A stretch of 64,000 nucleotides of DNA, taken from Isoptericola halotolerans. GTDB taxonomy: Bacteria; Actinomycetota; Actinomycetes; Actinomycetales; Cellulomonadaceae. The stretch is from positions 124,001 to 188,000 of the forward strand of contig NZ_PVTX01000001.1 of the NCBI RefSeq assembly GCF_003003075.1, read 5' to 3'. Position numbers and translations under genes: made by a program. The notes under the pieces are model-generated. The model was not told the DNA's origin. It made no database searches and saw only the letters and a program-made list of their open reading frames with translations. This document shows, piece by piece, positions 12,654-20,069 of this stretch; positions within the stretch are counted from its first letter, which is position 1; each line of letters opens with the position of its first letter.

Positions 12654-13339
12654 CAGTCGTGGTCCTCGACGAGCTCGCCCTCCCAGGCCTCCCGGCCCTC
12701 GTGCACCGCGAACGCGGCCACGACGAACCCGGCGAGCGGGTCGAACCAGGCCTGACCCGTCCACCAGAACGCGAGCAGGCCGGCGAGCGTCGCCACCGAC
12801 AGCCAGACGCAGACGCGGGTCTCGGCGGCGTCCGCGAGCACGAGCGGATCGCCGAGCGCCCGGCCGACGCGGTACTTGGCGGCGGCCAGCACCGGCATGA
12901 TCACGAGCGAGGCGACGAGCACGCCGAGCGCGAGCGGCGAGGTCTCCGGCACGGCCCCGGTGACGAGCGCGCGGATGCCCTCGGCGGTGACCCAGGCCGC
13001 GAGCAGGAAGAACGTGGCGGCGACGGCGCGCAGCGTGCGGTGCTCGCGGCGGAGCTCGGCCGGGTCGGGCTCGCTCGGGTCGGGCTCGTCGGCCCCGGCG
13101 GAGCCCCGCCCGGCAGCGCGGCGCCGGAGCCGCGCGGCCAGCCGCATCGCGACCAGCACGGCGGCGGCGGTCTCGATCCCGGAGTCGATGCCGAACCCGA
13201 TGACGGAGACCAGACCGGCCGCGACGCCGGCGCCGATCGCGACGACGCCCTCGACCACGTTGTAGGCGATGGTCAGACGCGCCAGGCGCAGGCCGCGCCG
13301 GGTGAGGGCCGTCGTCGTCGGCGTGGCGGTGGCGCTCAT
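12653..13339 (-). CDS. Cation transporter, second CDF-like protein
   Basis: 228 residues; its ATG (13339) overlaps the stop of the metal sensor gene by four bases (ATGA). About five to six helices. The helix-2 motif is GFGIDSGIETAAA, with a D-x-x-x-E pair where ordinary CDFs have D/H-x-x-x-D. A charged loop (DEPDPSEPDPAELRREHR) separates the two halves, and a final segment (WFDPLAGFVVAAFAVHEG) matches CDF helix 6. There is no cytoplasmic C-terminal domain. This compact type is frequent beside CmtR-like regulators in actinobacteria. It presumably exports Cd, Pb or Zn; the metal is inferred from the regulator. Confidence 0.82.
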   Translation of the reverse strand: MSATATPTTTALTRRGLRLARLTIAYNVVEGVVAIGAGVAAGLVSVIGFGIDSGIETAAAVLVAMRLAARLRRRAAGRGSAGADEPDPSEPDPAELRREHRTLRAVAATFFLLAAWVTAEGIRALVTGAVPETSPLALGVLVASLVIMPVLAAAKYRVGRALGDPLVLADAAETRVCVWLSVATLAGLLAFWWTGQAWFDPLAGFVVAAFAVHEGREAWEGELVEDHD

Positions 13340-13704
13340 GCCGCGGTCTCGCGCTCCTCGTGCGACGGCGCCCCGGACGCGCAGGTGCAGTCGGGCCCGC
13401 AGCAGTCGGGGTCGACGGCGAGGGTGAGGCGCAGGAGGTCGCCGAGCGCGTGGGCGAGGGCGGGGTCGCACAGCCGGTACTCGGTCCGGCGGCCGTCGCG
13501 CCGGGTGGTGACGAGCCCGCAGCCGCGCAGGCAGGCGAGCTGGTTGGACATCACCTGACGCGACACGCCGAGCCCGTCGGCGAGGTCGGCGGGGTAGGCC
13601 GGACCGTCACGCAGCGCGAGCATGATGCGCGTCCGGGTCGGGTCGCCGAGCGCGTGCCCGAGGCGGGCGAGCGCAGCGGTGTGGGTCAGCGTCACGGTCT
13701 CCAT
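13336..13704 (-). CDS. cmtR: ArsR/SmtB metal sensor, CmtR-like
   Basis: 122 residues from ATG 13704; an upstream ATG (13728) adds eight residues, but the shorter form matches the length of mycobacterial CmtR. The winged helix contains VSRQVMSNQLACLRGCGLV. The CxxxC pair in CLRGC matches the Cys57/Cys61 ligands of Mycobacterium tuberculosis CmtR, and a Cys-rich tail (CCGPDCTC) could supply the third ligand (Cys102 in CmtR). CmtR releases DNA on Cd(II) or Pb(II). Here it starts an overlapping operon with two cation exporters, so it is most likely a Cd/Pb-responsive repressor of its own operon. The AT-richer TGAATACATGAG just upstream is the likely promoter/operator region. Confidence 0.85.
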   Translation of the reverse strand: METVTLTHTAALARLGHALGDPTRTRIMLALRDGPAYPADLADGLGVSRQVMSNQLACLRGCGLVTTRRDGRRTEYRLCDPALAHALGDLLRLTLAVDPDCCGPDCTCASGAPSHEERETAA

Positions 13705-13755
13705 GAGGACGACAGTACAGCCACTCATGTATTCAGGGAAGCGTGTACCGCACAG

Positions 13756-14649
13756 CTATCGAGGGAGCACCTCGGCCAGCCAGTCGATCGTGGGCGCCAG
13801 GAGCTCGGCGTCGAACCGCGGGTCGGAGTGCTCCGCGCCCTCCAGCCACGTCACCCAGGGCTCGACCCCGCGGGCGCGCAGCGCATCGACGAGCAGGTGC
13901 GACTGCCCGGGCGCGACGGTGCAGTCGGCCGTGCCGTGGGCGATCGCCACCGCAGGCAGCGGCGGGGCGCCGTCGTCACCTCCGGCACCGCCGTCGCCGT
14001 CGCCGACGCCGTCCGCGGCGAGGTGCGGCAGCGGGCCGGCGAGCGCGGCGAGGTCGGGCGCGGTGCGCACGGGCGAGCCCACGTAGCGCGACTCGGGCGA
14101 GTCGTCGGCGGAGTGCGACGACGGGGCGCAGCCGATCTGGGCCGCATGGTCGTCCATCGCCAGGAAGTCGGTCGGACCGAACCAGTCGACCACCGCGGCG
14201 ATCGGCGCCGTCGGCCCGGGCGCGTCCGGAGCGGCCGGGTCGTCCCAGGGTGCGAGGCGTCCGGAGAGCGCCCCGACGACGCAGGCGATGTTCGCCCCGG
14301 CGGACTCGCCCCAGAGCACGATCCGGTCTGGGTCGATCCGCGCCTCGGCGGCGTGCCGCCGCAGGTGGCCGACGGCGGCACGGGTGTCGTCGACGGCGGC
14401 CGGGAACGGGGCCTCGCCCGACATCCGGTAGTCGATGCTCGCGACGGCGAACCCGGCGGCGAGCAGCGCCGCGACCTTGGGGGCCACCATCTCGCGCGAG
14501 CCGTAGTACCAGCCACCACCGTGCACGAACACGACCACCGGTGCGGGCCCGGTGGGCGCGTCGGGCAGCCACAGGTCGAGCCGCTGGCTGGGGGAGTCGG
14601 CGGCGTAGGCGACGTCGGCGACGGTGGGCGGTGGAGCGTCGATGGTCAC
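13756..14649 (-). CDS. Alpha/beta hydrolase, HSL/esterase type
   Basis: 297 residues. Its ATG overlaps the stop of the sigma-factor gene by four bases, so the two are translationally coupled. Oxyanion-hole motif HGGGWYYGS (about residue 43), nucleophile elbow GESAGAN (about residue 115) and the late acid and His in IAHGTADCTV and EGAEHSD identify a carboxylesterase or acyl hydrolase of the hormone-sensitive-lipase type. No signal peptide, so it acts in the cytoplasm. Substrate unknown. Its tie to a sigma factor and a nearby butyrolactone-type circuit makes hydrolysis of a signal or secondary metabolite conceivable, but nothing in the sequence proves that. Confidence 0.87.
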   Translation of the reverse strand: MTIDAPPPTVADVAYAADSPSQRLDLWLPDAPTGPAPVVVFVHGGGWYYGSREMVAPKVAALLAAGFAVASIDYRMSGEAPFPAAVDDTRAAVGHLRRHAAEARIDPDRIVLWGESAGANIACVVGALSGRLAPWDDPAAPDAPGPTAPIAAVVDWFGPTDFLAMDDHAAQIGCAPSSHSADDSPESRYVGSPVRTAPDLAALAGPLPHLAADGVGDGDGGAGGDDGAPPLPAVAIAHGTADCTVAPGQSHLLVDALRARGVEPWVTWLEGAEHSDPRFDAELLAPTIDWLAEVLPR

Positions 14650-15212
14650 GGCCCGACGCTACCGTGACGCTGCAGGTGGTGGCGCAGCTCCCGGCGGGCG
14701 CGGTGCAGGCGCGACTTGACGGTGCCGACGGGGACCCGCAGCGCCGCGGCGACCTCGGCCTCGGGCAGGTCGTCGACCAGGGCGAGGCGCGCCACCTGGC
14801 TCTCGACAGGGCCGAGGCGGGCCAGCGCGTCGACGAGCGCCAGCCGGTCCGCGACCCCTGGTGCGTGGTCGGGCACCACGTGCACGTCAGCCGTGGCGGC
14901 GGACGCGGCGTGCACGACCAGGCGGTCCTGGCGCAGGCAGCGGCGCCGCTCGTTGGCGCAGAGCCGGCTCGCGACTCCCCGGAGCCAGGGCCACGCGGTG
15001 GTCTCGACGCGCACGCTCGCGCGCCGTCGCCACAGGATGGCGAAGACGTCGGCGGCGACCCCGGCGGGGTCCGCCCGCGCGACCCCCCGCAGACCGGCGG
15101 CCACGGTGCGCAGGACCCGCTCGTGGTAACGGCGGAAGAGCAGCGAGAAGGCGTGCTGGTCGTCGGTGCGCACCCGTGCCCAGAGCTCGGGGTCCGTCGC
15201 GTCGGGACGCAT
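14646..15212 (-). CDS. RNA polymerase sigma factor, ECF-like sigma-70
   Basis: 188 residues. Region 2 is ELWARVRTDDQHAFSLLFRRYHERV to about FAILWRRR; region 4 is DLPEAEVAAALRVPVGTVKSRLHRARREL near the C-terminus. Regions 1 and 3 are absent, as in ECF-type factors. No anti-sigma gene is adjacent; the next gene in the operon is the esterase, overlapping by four bases. A 20-bp palindrome at 15304-15323 lies about 92 bases upstream of the start and has a near-copy in front of the TetR receptor gene, so this sigma factor is probably a target of that repressor. Confidence 0.88.
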   Translation of the reverse strand: MRPDATDPELWARVRTDDQHAFSLLFRRYHERVLRTVAAGLRGVARADPAGVAADVFAILWRRRASVRVETTAWPWLRGVASRLCANERRRCLRQDRLVVHAASAATADVHVVPDHAPGVADRLALVDALARLGPVESQVARLALVDDLPEAEVAAALRVPVGTVKSRLHRARRELRHHLQRHGSVGP

Positions 15213-15303
15213 GGCGGGCCTCCTGCGGGGATGTCGCGGCGGCCGCCCGGTGCGGCGCGCACACCCAGCGTGCAGGGCGCGGCGCCGGACCGCAAGGGTT
15301 TCG

Positions 15304-15323
15304 CTGACCTTCTGGTAGGTCAG
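15304..15323. promoter_or_regulatory. Operator copy 1 (upstream of the sigma-factor gene)
   Basis: CTGACCTTCTGGTAGGTCAG; read on the minus strand it is CTGACCTACCAGAAGGTCAG. Outer arms CTGACC/GGTCAG are perfectly inverted. It differs from the copy at 16107-16126 only in the variable centre, 17 of 20 positions being equal on the matching strand. The 20-22 bp size is normal for butyrolactone-receptor operators. Confidence 0.7.
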
Positions 15324-15342
15324 TCAGCCCGACGCGGCCGAC

Positions 15343-15933
15343 TCACCGCGCCCGGACGCCGTCGAGCAGGGTGCGCCAGAGGTCGTCGAGCCGGTCGACC
15401 GGGTCGACCGGGTCGGCCACGCGCCGCGCGAGCTCCTGCATGCCCAGGAACGTGGCGACGAGCTGCCAGGCGAGGGCGTCGACGTCGATCCCGGCGCGGA
15501 CCTCGCCCGCCCCGACCGCACGGTCGAGGCAGCGGCGGACCACGGCGATCCAGCTCGTGAAGGGGTCCGGGAGCTCGGTCTCCGGGCCCTGGCGGGTCAG
15601 CCGGACGGCCGCCCGCAGCACGACGTCGTCGCGGAACCGGCCCACCACCTCCACGGAGAGCTGCTGCAGGGCGTCCAGGCCGGTCAAGCCGTCCTCGTCG
15701 AGCGACCGCAGGATGGGCTCCCAGACGTCGGCGCCTGCACGTGCCACCTCGGCGGCCAGCTCCGCCTTCGACGCGAAGTGGAAGTAGACCGATCCCTTGG
15801 TGAGCCGCAAGCGGTCGGCAATGCGCGCGACAGAGGTCGCGGAATAGCCGTGGGCGTCGAACTCCTCCGCGGCGGTCTGCAAGATCGCCGCGCGGGTCGC
15901 TGCCTTCTGTCGTTGTCGTGATGTTGCGGCCAC
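15343..15933 (-). CDS. TetR-family regulator, ScbR/ArpA-like butyrolactone receptor
   Basis: 196 residues. N-terminal helix-turn-helix RAAILQTAAEEFDAHGYSATS followed by IADRLRLTKGSVYFHFASKAELA; the KGSVYFHF recognition stretch is characteristic of ArpA/ScbR-type receptors. The ligand domain contains WQLVATFLGMQELARRV, matching the conserved Trp-containing segment of that subfamily. It lies directly downstream of an AfsA-like synthase gene on the same strand. A 20-bp palindrome at the end of the synthase gene and another before the sigma-factor gene are its likely binding sites. The expected behaviour is repression released by a small diffusible lactone. Ligand class is inferred from family and neighbour. 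Confidence 0.82.
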   Translation of the reverse strand: MAATSRQRQKAATRAAILQTAAEEFDAHGYSATSVARIADRLRLTKGSVYFHFASKAELAAEVARAGADVWEPILRSLDEDGLTGLDALQQLSVEVVGRFRDDVVLRAAVRLTRQGPETELPDPFTSWIAVVRRCLDRAVGAGEVRAGIDVDALAWQLVATFLGMQELARRVADPVDPVDRLDDLWRTLLDGVRAR

Positions 15934-16106
15934 CGATGTTTCCTTCGCTGCCGGCCGGTGCGGGGACGCCTGGAATGGCGGCGTTCCTCCCCGGACCGTA
16001 GCGCGATCGGAATGGTCGCTCCTCGTGGCGCGCGGGACGATTTCGCGGAACGCCCGGCCGCCGGTCCCGCATTGTCGGACCTACCGGGGTGAATGGGCAG
16101 AATTCA

Positions 16107-16126
16107 CTGACCCAACAGAAGGTCAG
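16107..16126. promoter_or_regulatory. Operator copy 2 (between AfsA-like and TetR genes)
   Basis: CTGACCCAACAGAAGGTCAG, with flanking bases extending the inverted arms to ACTGACC/GGTCAGT. It ends one base before the AfsA-like stop codon and sits 174 bases upstream of the TetR start, where it could control the receptor gene. Confidence 0.7.
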
Positions 16127-16933
16127 TCAATCACCGAGGTGGATCTCGCCGCGGGCCGCGACCAGGCGGTCCTGCAGGACGGAGACCTCGACGGTGTCGC
16201 CGTCGGCCGTGGCATAGACCTCCGGACGCGGTGTGTACTCGACGAACCGGTCGATCGCCATCGAGGCCCCGACCGCCGTCCGCCCCGGGCGCAGCAGCGC
16301 GGCCGCCCGCAGCGCCGCCGCGACCAGCGTGTGGCCCGACACCCGGTCCAGGGTGGGGTCCACCTGCGCCGGGTCGTCCGAGTCCCAGCCGATCCGGCCG
16401 AGCAGGCGGTCCCCGCGCTGCTGCAGCACGTCGAGCGGCGACGCGTCGTGGCGGACCGGCGCGGATCCCGGCGCGGGGGCCTCGCCCCGCACCACGGGGT
16501 AGGTCTCGGGGTCGATGCACTGCACGGCACCGCTGCCGTGGGCGATCTCCCGGGAGCCCACGCGCAGCGTGAGGGAGGCCTCGAAGGCGCCGGTCGCGCC
16601 GCGTCGCCGACGCCGGGCGTGCACCTGGGCGAACGCGGTGGCCGCGAGCGCCCCGGTGTCCGGGAGCCGCGGTGGCCGGCCGCTCCACCGGAACGCGACC
16701 CGGCGCATGCTCAGGTGGTGGTCCGGCGGCACCTCGAGGCCCTGCCGCGCCAGGACCACGCCGACCTGCCGCACCACCTCGAGGCCCGTGAGGAACGGGG
16801 CGGTGACGCCGGGCGGCGGTCCCGGTCTCGCCAGGATCCGCACCGGCAGGTGCCACCTGTCCGTGCCGGCCGCCGTCGGGCCCCCCACCTGGATGCCGCC
16901 GGCCGCCGTCGCGCCACCCTCCGGCGCGCTCAC
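16127..16933 (-). CDS. AfsA/ScbA-like butyrolactone synthase (double hotdog)
   Basis: 268 residues, GTG start at 16933 with GAGAGG upstream. Two hotdog-type repeats can be seen. The first has FLTGLEVVRQVGVVLARQGLEVPPDHH, corresponding to the AfsA segment that reads LLVAEAMRQAA and on to a His. The second has DPTLDRVSGHTLVAAALRAAALL, corresponding to the DHVPGMLLLEAARQAA region. AfsA-type enzymes condense a beta-ketoacyl chain with dihydroxyacetone phosphate to start butyrolactone signal synthesis. Next on the same strand is a ScbR-like receptor. It is somewhat shorter than AfsA (about 300) and the motifs are divergent, so the exact product cannot be predicted. Confidence 0.8.
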   Translation of the reverse strand: MSAPEGGATAAGGIQVGGPTAAGTDRWHLPVRILARPGPPPGVTAPFLTGLEVVRQVGVVLARQGLEVPPDHHLSMRRVAFRWSGRPPRLPDTGALAATAFAQVHARRRRRGATGAFEASLTLRVGSREIAHGSGAVQCIDPETYPVVRGEAPAPGSAPVRHDASPLDVLQQRGDRLLGRIGWDSDDPAQVDPTLDRVSGHTLVAAALRAAALLRPGRTAVGASMAIDRFVEYTPRPEVYATADGDTVEVSVLQDRLVAARGEIHLGD

Positions 16934-16971
16934 GGTCCGACCTCTCGCCAGTTCCCCATGCTCACGGATGT

Positions 16972-17003
16972 CCGGCCGGCGCGGATCGGTTCGCGCCGGC
17001 CGG
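16972..17003 (-). terminator. Hairpin after the TetR gene at 17.0 kb
   Basis: Perfect 12-bp arms (16972-16983 and 16992-17003) around an 8-base loop, 28 bases beyond the TetR stop on the minus strand and 39 bases before the AfsA-like start. It probably separates the two transcription units. Confidence 0.65.
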
Positions 17004-17030
17004 CCGCCGGGCCGTGCGCCGGCCGGACGC

Positions 17031-17606
17031 TCAGGCCGAGACGGTCGTGCGCGTCGCGGCGTCCAGCAGGGTCTCGGCCGCCGCCCGCGCGTGCCGGGCC
17101 GCGTCCGCGTCGCCCGAGACGGCGGCGACCGTCTGCGCGCCCTCGGCGAGGAGGACGATCTGCGGTGCCAGCCAGGCCGGGGCGCCGGCGTCGGCCACCA
17201 GGCGGGCGACGTGCTCGCCGAACGCCGTCTTCTGCTCGCGGACGACGGCGGACGCCGCGGCCGAGCCGGGGCCCATCTCGCCGTAGGTGTTGATGAAGGC
17301 GCAGCCGCGGAAGGTGGGCTCGCGGAACCAGTCGTCGAGGAAGTCGAAGATCGCGAGGAGCTGCTCGCGGGCCGTGGCCGCCGGGTCGGTCACGGAGGCG
17401 ATGCCCGCGTCCCACGTCGTGCGGCGCTGCTCGAGGACGGCGACGAGCAGGTCCTCCTTGGAGGCGAACATCGCGTAGATGCGCTTGAGCGGGACCCCCG
17501 CCGCCGCGCGCACGGCGTCCATGCCCACGGCCCGCACCCCACGGGCGTAGAACAGCTCGTCCGCCGCGGTCACCACGCGCTCGCGCGCCGTTCGCTCGTC
17601 GGTCAT
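17031..17606 (-). CDS. TetR-family regulator divergent from haloperoxidase
   Basis: 191 residues from ATG 17606; an upstream in-frame start (17621) would add five residues. Helix-turn-helix: RVVTAADELFYARGVRAVGMDAVRAAAGVPLKRIYAMFASKEDL. The C-terminal domain contains CAFINTYGEM, seen in many TetR regulators of divergent oxidoreductases and hydrolases. The divergent promoter region carries two perfect palindromes with the same GAGAACGATCGTTCTC core (17646-17661 and 17678-17697), so it very likely represses both itself and the hydrolase gene. The inducer is unknown. Confidence 0.88.
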   Translation of the reverse strand: MTDERTARERVVTAADELFYARGVRAVGMDAVRAAAGVPLKRIYAMFASKEDLLVAVLEQRRTTWDAGIASVTDPAATAREQLLAIFDFLDDWFREPTFRGCAFINTYGEMGPGSAAASAVVREQKTAFGEHVARLVADAGAPAWLAPQIVLLAEGAQTVAAVSGDADAARHARAAAETLLDAATRTTVSA

Positions 17607-17638
17607 GTCAACGCCTCCCACAGTTCGCTCCGCACCAC

Positions 17639-17667
17639 TTGCGCGGAGAACGATCGTTCTCTACTGT
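17639..17667 (+). promoter_or_regulatory. Promoter of the haloperoxidase-type gene
   Basis: -35 TTGCGC (17639-17644), 17-base spacer, -10 TACTGT (17662-17667). The first TetR palindrome fills the spacer exactly, so repressor binding would block RNA polymerase directly. Confidence 0.55.
17646..17661. promoter_or_regulatory. TetR operator, proximal palindrome
   Basis: GAGAACGATCGTTCTC, a perfect 16-bp palindrome in the TetR/hydrolase divergent region. Its centre is 34 bp from that of the second copy, close to three helical turns. Confidence 0.8.
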
Positions 17668-17669
17668 AG

Positions 17670-18560
<891 letters not shown>

Positions 18561-18566
18561 GGCACC

Positions 18567-18602
18567 GGTGCGCCCCGGGACGCTCAGGTCCCGGGGCGCA
18601 CC
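18567..18602. terminator. Bidirectional terminator, hydrolase / response regulator
   Basis: Perfect 15-bp arms (18567-18581 and 18588-18602) with a 6-base loop between convergent genes. The right arm extends into the last codons of the response-regulator gene. Confidence 0.75.
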
Positions 18603-19240
18603 AGCCCCGTCTCGTACGCGAGCACCACCAGCGCGGCCCGGTCGCGGGCGTCGAGCTTGGTGAGCAACCGGCTCACGTAGGTCCGCGCCGTGGCCGGCGA
18701 CAGGAACAGCTCCGCGGCGATCTCGGCGTTCGTCAGCCCCCGCCCGACGGCGCCGAGCACCTCGCGCTCGCGCCCCGTCAGGGCGTCGAGCGCTCCGCCG
18801 TCCGACGGCGGTGCCCCGACCGCGACCGCCCGCAGGACGCTCGCCGTCACCGCCGGGGAGAGCAGCGAGTCACCGGAGTGCACCGTCCGCACCGCGGCAC
18901 GCAGGTCCGACGGCGTCACGTCCTTGAGCAGGTAGCCGGCGGCCCCGGCGCGGATCGCCGCGAACACGTGGTCGTCCTCGTCGAAGGTGGTCAGGACGAG
19001 GACCCGCACGTCTCGCAGCAGCGGGTCGGCGACGATCGCGCGGGTGGCCTCGATGCCGTCCACGTGCGGCATGCGGACGTCCATGAGGACCACGTCCGGG
19101 CGCTCCCGGCGCACGAGGGCGAGACCGGCGCGACCGTCCGCCGCCTCGCCGACCACCTCGATGTCGCCGTCGCGCTCCGCGAGCGGGCGCAGCCCGGCGC
19201 GCACGAGCTCCTGGTCGTCGACGAGCACGATGCGGATCAC
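18584..19240 (-). CDS. NarL/LuxR-type response regulator
   Basis: 218 residues from GTG 19240, giving the normal receiver start IRIVLVDDQELVRAGL; longer in-frame starts would run into the neighbouring promoter. The phosphorylated Asp is in VVLMDVRMP (about D54), with the conserved T (LVLTTFDED) and K (GYLLKDV). The C-terminal LuxR helix-turn-helix is LTGREREVLGAVGRGLTNAEIAAELFLSPATARTYVSRLLTKL. Its likely partner, a NarL-type kinase, lies on the same strand at 20119-21405, with a CPBP protease gene on the other strand between them. Confidence 0.92.
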   Translation of the reverse strand: MIRIVLVDDQELVRAGLRPLAERDGDIEVVGEAADGRAGLALVRRERPDVVLMDVRMPHVDGIEATRAIVADPLLRDVRVLVLTTFDEDDHVFAAIRAGAAGYLLKDVTPSDLRAAVRTVHSGDSLLSPAVTASVLRAVAVGAPPSDGGALDALTGREREVLGAVGRGLTNAEIAAELFLSPATARTYVSRLLTKLDARDRAALVVLAYETGLVRPGT

Positions 19241-19337
19241 CCGTCCAGTGTGGCGGACGCCTCCTTGAGCCTGTGGCAGGAACACCGTGTCCACTGGTCG
19301 GGCAGCGCCGACCCACCAGTTCAGGGAGTCCCCTCGC

Positions 19338-20069
19338 ATGTCGATCGATCACGACGACCGCTCGAAGCCGACCTCGACCGGTCTCGCGTCACCTGCTCGA
19401 CCAGGCTGGCCCGAGATCGTCGTCGGCACGCTCGCCGCGGTCGTCGCCCTGCTCGCGATCCGGCTGTTCGGCCTCCTCGGCGTCGACGAGGACCCGGTGG
19501 TCCACGGACTGGTCCTGACCGCGTGGTCGGGAGTCGCCGGCCTGGTCGGCTTCACGGTCGCGGCCCTCGTCCGGATCCGGTCCTGGGGTGCCTTCAGCGT
19601 GCGTCGCACCAGCGGGCGCTGGGTGCTGCTCGGCGTGGCGGCCGGCGTCGCCGCGCTCGTGCTCAAGGGCCTGGTCAACACCGGGATCATCGCGGTGACC
19701 GGGTTCAGCGCCGACCCGCAGGGCGACTACTACGACGCGGCCGGCGGCGGTGTGCTGCCCCTGATCCTGACCTTCGTCTTCCTGTCCGTGCTCACCCCCG
19801 TCGGCGAGGAGTTCTTCTTCCGCGGCGTCGTGACCAACGCACTGCTGCGCTACGGGCCGGTCGTCGGCGTCCTGTCCAGCTCGGTCTTCTTCGCCCTCGT
19901 CCACGGCATCAACATCGCGCTGCCCTCGGCGTTCGTGGTGGGCGTCATCGCCGCCGAGGTCATGCGCCGTAGCGGGTCCATCTGGCCCGCGGTGATCGTC
20001 CACGCGGTCAACAACGCCGCACTGCCCCTGCTCGTGCTGCTCACCGGGACCTCCGGCCCCGCCGTGTGA
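19338..20069 (+). CDS. CPBP-family intramembrane metalloprotease
   Basis: 243 residues, ATG 19338. About seven to eight membrane helices. The CPBP (Abi, CAAX-type) motifs are in order: GEEFFFRG (EExxxR), FALVHG (FxxxH) and HAVNNAAL (HxxxN). Homologues include Rce1-type and MroQ-type proteins that cut signalling or bacteriocin-related peptides in the membrane. The gene sits on the plus strand between a response regulator and its presumed kinase, both on the minus strand. It may be a target or a modulator of that system, but this is contextual. It diverges from the response-regulator gene with a 97-base gap. Confidence 0.88.
   Translation: MSIDHDDRSKPTSTGLASPARPGWPEIVVGTLAAVVALLAIRLFGLLGVDEDPVVHGLVLTAWSGVAGLVGFTVAALVRIRSWGAFSVRRTSGRWVLLGVAAGVAALVLKGLVNTGIIAVTGFSADPQGDYYDAAGGGVLPLILTFVFLSVLTPVGEEFFFRGVVTNALLRYGPVVGVLSSSVFFALVHGINIALPSAFVVGVIAAEVMRRSGSIWPAVIVHAVNNAALPLLVLLTGTSGPAV

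Follow-up and report, generated by a model that had tools for sequence, protein, structure and literature searches.

The window analyzed here is a 64-kb stretch of DNA from a 3.85-Mb genome in 22 contigs. On its minus strand, four genes follow one another in the order of transcription: a gene for an AfsA-like double-hotdog protein of 268 amino acids (16933 to 16127), a gene for a TetR repressor of the ScbR family of 196 amino acids (15933 to 15343), an ECF sigma factor gene (15212 to 14646; 188 amino acids), and a gene for a BD-FAE-type esterase (14649 to 13756; identified as an ORF with a Pfam match), which overlaps the sigma gene by 4 nt. The first two genes are separated by a gap of 193 nt. 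An earlier note on this DNA had placed both ORFs at these positions on the same strand, with the TetR gene after the AfsA-like gene, and this arrangement was confirmed; the ECF sigma gene was not listed there. Besides the genome of the window (G000), three other Isoptericola genomes carry the AfsA-like gene (G012, G007, and G003). At all four loci, afsA, scbR where found, and the sigma gene lie in this order on one strand. The esterase gene adjoins the sigma gene in two of the four genomes and is therefore an optional part of the locus. The named relatives of the AfsA-like protein come from an uncultured Isoptericola sp. (81%) and I. halotolerans (68%), and these two loci were not counted as evidence beyond G012 and G007. 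Gene contexts at the loci of relatives were called with a simple ORF caller, and Pfam names cover nine window proteins (13336 to 20069) and selected proteins from the relatives' loci. At one end of the scanned region, the gene at 13336 to 13728 (minus strand) encodes an ArsR-type regulator close to the model for the Cd/Pb sensor CmtR (122.7 bits against a cut-off of 150), and the genes after it resemble, by eye, cation efflux genes.

The earlier note had taken the product of 16127 to 16933 for a double-hotdog protein of the AfsA type. The match to AfsA extended over nearly the whole length of the protein, but the scores of the public profiles fell short of their thresholds: PF03756 gave 23.7 bits (E value of 5.3e-5; one stretch, residues 51 to 137), just below the gathering score of 24, and NF041195 gave 75.1 bits (residues 47 to 263) against a cut-off of 200. 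The NF041195 cut-off was also missed by the proteins of G099 and G202, both of which keep the conserved His residues of the family, so that missing it is by itself weak evidence. An HMM built from 36 AfsA homologues matched with 125 bits over residues 22 to 266, spanning both hotdog halves, and an hhalign comparison of the four Isoptericola proteins with 12 AfsA proteins gave a probability of 99.9. The protein is thus a genuine but distant homologue of AfsA, with similarity well above chance. No relatives of the AfsA-like protein were found in plasmids by tblastn (E value of ≤1e-5).

Next, the conserved residues of the family were compared. Across the 36 homologues, the E, R, Q, and H of the first helix and the Arg at position 149 were present in all 36, the N-terminal His was present in 35, and the two His residues of the FDHxxDH motif were present in 32 and 34. 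All four family His residues were found in 31 of the 36; in the other five, one or two of them are missing or fall in gaps. The set invariant in an alignment of 12 AfsA proteins (V, H, T, E, R, Q, H, P, R, F, D, H, D, and H) was the same; that alignment was drawn mostly from the same proteins as the 36, with the addition of the plasmid-borne one. At the aligned positions, none of the four His residues was present in any of the four Isoptericola genomes, where the residues were, in the order G000, G012, G007, and G003, G/E/A/G, R/R/R/N, P/P/P/A, and R/R/R/R. The N-terminal position was poorly aligned, and G007 has a VH nearby at a different place; the VHxxxxxEVLLT motif was absent from the open frames of all four genes. 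The window protein thus lacks the N-terminal VH motif and has R63, P193, and R197 in place of the other family His residues, and it keeps E52, R55, Q56, R149, D192, and D196. The change of H197 to Arg was common to all four proteins, which also have SGH or SAL in place of PGM. All four keep R55 and R149, three keep E52 (D in G003), and two keep Q56.

All 12 aligned family AfsA proteins from outside Isoptericola keep the four His residues, as do G099 (38% identity), an MmfL-like protein of a Streptomyces plasmid, and G954 from the same order. The count of 36 leaves out L147 (the window), L136, L154, and L156, the last three of which were missed by a three-query phmmer search, and G101, a weak match (E value of 1.8e-5) with a 718-aa frame, was not included in the alignment. 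In L136, one of those outside the 36, both the VH and the FDHxxDH motif are intact. L154 and L156 (two genomes, family f6), which have other gene contexts, possess neither the DHxxDH motif nor the helix His; degenerate AfsA-like proteins are therefore not unique to Isoptericola. AfsA-like proteins of f6 without DHxxDH lie at L173 6233 to 7135 (minus strand) and L156 1093 to 2298 (plus strand), in different gene contexts, and degenerate AfsA homologues may form a wider class.

Given the replacement of four conserved His residues in all four Isoptericola genomes, the AfsA-like protein is probably not a canonical butenolide-phosphate synthase. We infer from their conservation that these His residues are catalytic, since no AfsA-family structure was found in the PDB. 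The retention of E52, R55, and R149 in G000 makes a changed chemistry possible, and with the family signature absent, we regard synthase activity as unlikely. The designation of an AfsA-type synthase in the earlier note thus stood as far as homology was concerned, but not for the His residues expected of the enzyme. Its suggestion that a divergent synthase could make a new signal is possible, but it is not the likeliest reading in view of the lost signature.

In a phylogenetic tree rooted at the midpoint, the four Isoptericola AfsA-like proteins formed one clade (100/99), which was joined to the taxonomic family's 12 AfsA proteins (100/100). From this placement, and from the retention of all four His residues in G099 and the MmfL-like plasmid protein, the His loss looks derived. 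No internal stop was found in the AfsA-like gene in any of the four genomes, and it is therefore not an obvious pseudogene. Among G000, G012, and G007, the dN/dS ratios were 0.25 to 0.30 for afsA, 0.19 to 0.27 for scbR, and 0.25 to 0.34 for the sigma gene, values that indicate that the AfsA-like gene is under purifying selection between close species. In comparisons with G003, where dS is probably underestimated, the ratios were 0.59 to 0.72 for afsA and 0.47 to 0.53 for the sigma gene.

In the NCBI profile search, the product of the second gene matched NF041196 (ScbR family) with 165 bits, above the cut-off of 150, and it was the only match above the cut-off in the genome, the next one having 73.6 bits. 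Pfam detected a TetR_N domain (56 bits). Its W128 lies within a PFTxW segment that aligns with PFTEW of CprB, and all 29 ScbR-family sequences of the taxonomic family that were aligned have Trp in this column (matches at an E value of ≤1e-30, with the window's own protein excluded). This family Trp presumably lines the ligand pocket. The best solved relatives were 6srn (109 bits), which we take to be MmfR, CprB (1ui5), a gamma-butyrolactone receptor (5xay), and AvaR1. No relatives of the receptor were found in phages by tblastn (E value of ≤1e-5). Together with the operator-like boxes described below, these results bear out the view in the earlier note that the TetR protein is a receptor of the ArpA/ScbR type with the characteristic Trp, and its placement in an unrelated subfamily, the case named there as fatal, did not arise. 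The receptor is predicted to bind a lactone-type ligand in the pocket around W128.

We then examined the intergenic regions. A palindrome, CTGACC-N8-GGTCAG, was present on both sides of scbR. Box 1 (TGACCTTCTGTTGGGTCAGTGAA; 16103 to 16125, minus strand; palindrome at 16107 to 16126) lies between the afsA stop and the scbR start, and box 2 (TGACCTACCAGAAGGTCAGCGAA; 15300 to 15322, minus strand; palindrome at 15304 to 15323) lies between the scbR stop and the sigma start. Palindromes alone were rejected as evidence for operators: random 360-base stretches often contained 22-base windows of equal symmetry, and at most one mismatch separated the bare palindrome from 35 places in the genome, compared with 11 for a control. 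The operator claim therefore rests on conservation. An exact palindrome was found at three places in the genome, of which the third (C5:48535) has a different center and was taken as a chance occurrence. G012 and G007 have equivalent boxes at both positions, some as imperfect palindromes, so that in each of the three genomes with the receptor, similar boxes precede the receptor gene and the sigma gene. Box 1, which precedes the receptor's own gene in all three and is an imperfect palindrome in G007, is a putative operator. Columns identical in the three species made up 20 of 25 inside box 1 and 99 of 171 outside and, for box 2, 21 of 28 inside and 41 of 102 outside, with box spans chosen by us.

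A consensus made from the six sites in the three genomes was used to search G000, G007, G012, and G003 with up to three mismatches. Twenty matches were obtained, comprising the 6 source sites (exact by construction), 4 reverse-strand readings of them with two or three mismatches, and 10 at other loci. These 10 all had three mismatches, and a reversed control pattern gave 8. No box was found upstream of afsA in any of the four genomes at this threshold or anywhere at the G003 locus, and G003 has no ScbR-family match at an E value of ≤1e-30. As a separate observation, about 70 bases directly 5' of the GTG start of scbR (15934 to 16005) appeared by eye to be strongly conserved in three species without a single reading frame, and they are possibly an untranslated leader.

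Immediately 3' of box 2, a promoter-like pair, TTGCGG-N17-CACGCT (15267 to 15295, minus strand), was recognized by eye, and a similar pair with the same spacing was seen in G012, G007, and G003. In G003, a TTGCGC-N17-CACGCT pair was kept before the sigma gene despite the lack of a box. Upstream of afsA, the element GAACC-N13-CGGACATCC (16966 to 16992, minus strand) was conserved: an exact-match search found it, with zero mismatches, once in each of three genomes, and by eye its spacing is 14 in G003. This element is possibly the afsA promoter. We considered whether it could be driven by the ECF sigma factor, and its single occurrence per genome neither supports nor excludes this.

The sigma protein scored above the cut-offs for both TIGR02937 (48.1 versus 42.9) and Sigma70_r4_2 (43.2 versus 25.7). 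When 221 genomes of the taxonomic family were searched, orthologues of at least 185 bits were found in exactly the four genomes that have the His-less AfsA-like protein, and the next matches had at most 78 bits. The ECF sigma gene is thus the most constant partner of the AfsA-like gene, although this co-occurrence reflects linkage and not many independent events, because it concerns one locus in one genus. At the G003 locus (L068 7405 to 8982), the AfsA-like and sigma genes are directly adjacent; this locus is a natural experiment on an AfsA-like protein without the receptor.

Relatives of the AfsA-like protein (E value of ≤1e-3, the window's genome counted) were found in 4 of 18 genomes of the genus and 17 of 221 of the family. 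Its profile matched in 6 of 396 genomes of the order (E value of ≤1e-8), and NF041195 matched in 18 of 396 of the phylum (E value of ≤1e-10). ScbR-family genes (E value of ≤1e-30) were present in 29 of the 221 family genomes. Sixteen of the 17 AfsA genomes were among these 29, and in 15 of the 17 the two genes were adjacent. The remaining 13 receptor genomes had no AfsA match; because the window protein served as the query, the search may have passed over divergent AfsA genes. Within the 2.5 to 14 kb examined near those 13 receptors, the AfsA HMM gave one marginal match (12.6 bits). Many receptors of the taxonomic family may thus lack a partner synthase.

Among the nine window proteins scanned, there was neither a reductase nor a phosphatase, nor an anti-sigma factor. 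Genes for tailoring enzymes can lie elsewhere in a genome. The 10 proteins scanned at the loci of relatives included HAD hydrolases, encoded near two intact AfsA genes, and a protein of epimerase type, encoded next to the afsA of G099; with so few cases, tailoring enzymes could not be taken as a rule of intact loci. On the other side of the AfsA-like gene, a second TetR gene (17031 to 17621, minus strand) and an alpha/beta hydrolase gene (17718 to 18560, plus strand) form a divergent pair. We rejected them as parts of the system, since the pair is present in genomes without it: a relative of the second TetR (51 to 61% identity) lay beside the hydrolase in five of five non-carrier genomes examined, which had been chosen for having the hydrolase. 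The hydrolase was found in 10 of 18 genomes of the genus (E value of ≤1e-60), and the pair is independent of the AfsA locus.

The locus was then compared with known systems. Like ScbA/ScbR and AfsA/ArpA of Streptomyces, it has an AfsA homologue adjoining an ScbR-family TetR gene and an operator-like box before the receptor gene; it differs from them in the absence of the His signature, in having no box before afsA, and in that the boxed neighbor is an ECF sigma gene. The genes scbA and scbR are divergent in S. coelicolor (PMC2444045), whereas the two genes are in tandem here. In S. griseus, the sigma factor AdsA is activated by AdpA (PMC4021200), so that a regulator stands between the receptor and the sigma factor. 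For the methylenomycin furan system, MmfL/MmfR, PMC7756379 reports that MmfL, like an AfsA-like domain, makes phosphorylated butenolides from 3-ketothioesters and dihydroxyacetone phosphate (DHAP).

A locus on plasmid NZ_CP109276.1 (L166), which we labeled Mmf-like, allowed a closer comparison. Its receptor resembles 6srn, the best solved relative of the window receptor. The box core also resembles sites before the ScbR-family gene and the second TetR gene of L166, where the operator core is ATACCTTCCCGCAGGTAT, compared with TGACCTTCTGTTGGGTCA and TGACCTACCAGAAGGTCA here. However, all four His residues, absent here, are intact in the AfsA protein of L166, whose gene is followed by genes of the acyl-CoA dehydrogenase family and for a HAD hydrolase, neither of which was among the nine window proteins scanned. 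Of the AfsA-ScbR pairs in the same taxonomic family, that of G099 is the nearest by identity outside the genus (38% for AfsA and 54% for the receptor), and the receptor tree joins G099 to Isoptericola weakly (63/84). These pairs differ from the Isoptericola locus in that they keep the four His residues, have divergent or convergent genes, and lack an orthologue of the ECF sigma gene. AfsA-type signaling is known mainly in Streptomyces and a few other genera. The remark in the earlier note that such signaling is little described in Micrococcales agrees with the named relatives, which are Isoptericola, and with a 2016 review (PMC4748050), in the text of which Isoptericola, Cellulomonas, and "Micrococc-" do not occur. 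Among the titles listed by a literature search, none names this circuit in Isoptericola or Cellulomonas.

Slightly more likely than not, in our judgment, is a switch in which an ScbR-type repressor controls itself and the ECF sigma gene, accompanied by a noncanonical AfsA protein. From the position and conservation of the boxes, which are rare genome-wide, the TetR protein would bind the two similar palindromic boxes before its own gene and the sigma gene and repress both. A ligand of the butyrolactone, furan, or butenolide class, most likely external or from another source, would bind the pocket and release the repressor, upon which the sigma factor would be made as the output. The AfsA-like protein would descend from a genuine synthase and would most likely no longer condense a beta-ketoacyl thioester with DHAP in the canonical way. 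Since it is kept by selection, it may retain some other job, perhaps the binding of an acyl ligand or a partner protein. The probable butyrolactone circuit proposed in the earlier note is thus upheld in its receptor half, and its synthase half is weakened by the His loss, by the lack of a box before afsA, and by the lack of a reductase or phosphatase among the nine neighbors.

A complete self-signaling circuit would require a divergent but active synthase with an altered active site, whose lactone-type product relieves ScbR and turns on the sigma gene. The adjacency to a proper ScbR-family receptor, an arrangement shared by most AfsA matches in the family, argues for it, as do the residues kept (E52, R55, R149, D192, and D196) and the purifying selection on afsA between close species. 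We nevertheless consider it unlikely, because all four His residues are replaced in every one of the four genomes together with the PGM motif, G003 keeps afsA and the sigma gene with no ScbR-family gene found, afsA has no receptor box upstream, and the scanned neighbors include no phosphatase or reductase.

One concrete form of the repressor switch is that the AfsA-like protein is a pseudoenzyme that binds an acyl ligand and regulates the sigma factor or the receptor by contact, so that two inputs converge on one sigma factor. In its most far-reaching version, a former signal synthase would have become a nonenzymatic, or chemically new, partner of the sigma factor, its fold now serving to sense or buffer the ligand, while ScbR gates the sigma gene. 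Consistent with this are the pairing of the AfsA-like and sigma genes in four of four genomes, including G003 without scbR, the Arg in place of H197 in all four, and the lack of an anti-sigma factor among the nine window proteins scanned. Within this form, the sigma factor may read the GAACC-N13-CGGACATCC element before afsA, closing a loop. The idea is a rather doubtful one, and its nearest precedent argues against it: in PMC2444045, a ScbA-ScbR complex in Streptomyces is a hypothesis only, with no interaction reported.

Pseudo-receptors of Streptomyces answer to other ligands. An orphan sensor of other compounds beside an unrelated AfsA-like remnant that is being lost would agree with the description of ScbR-family pseudo-receptors in Streptomyces (PMC7296167) and with the 13 of 29 receptor genomes lacking an AfsA match, near whose receptors the HMM reached 12.6 bits at best, but it is improbable given an AfsA-like gene free of stops in four genomes, with a dN/dS well below 1 between close species and a conserved element upstream.

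On the reading that we prefer, the repressor switch, Isoptericola has a compact version of these systems in which the receptor appears to control the ECF sigma gene directly. Should the AfsA homologue prove to have no synthase activity, it would be unsafe to annotate AfsA-ScbR pairs as complete quorum-sensing circuits from homology only. A pseudosynthase with a retained role would, if true, be a new regulatory part.
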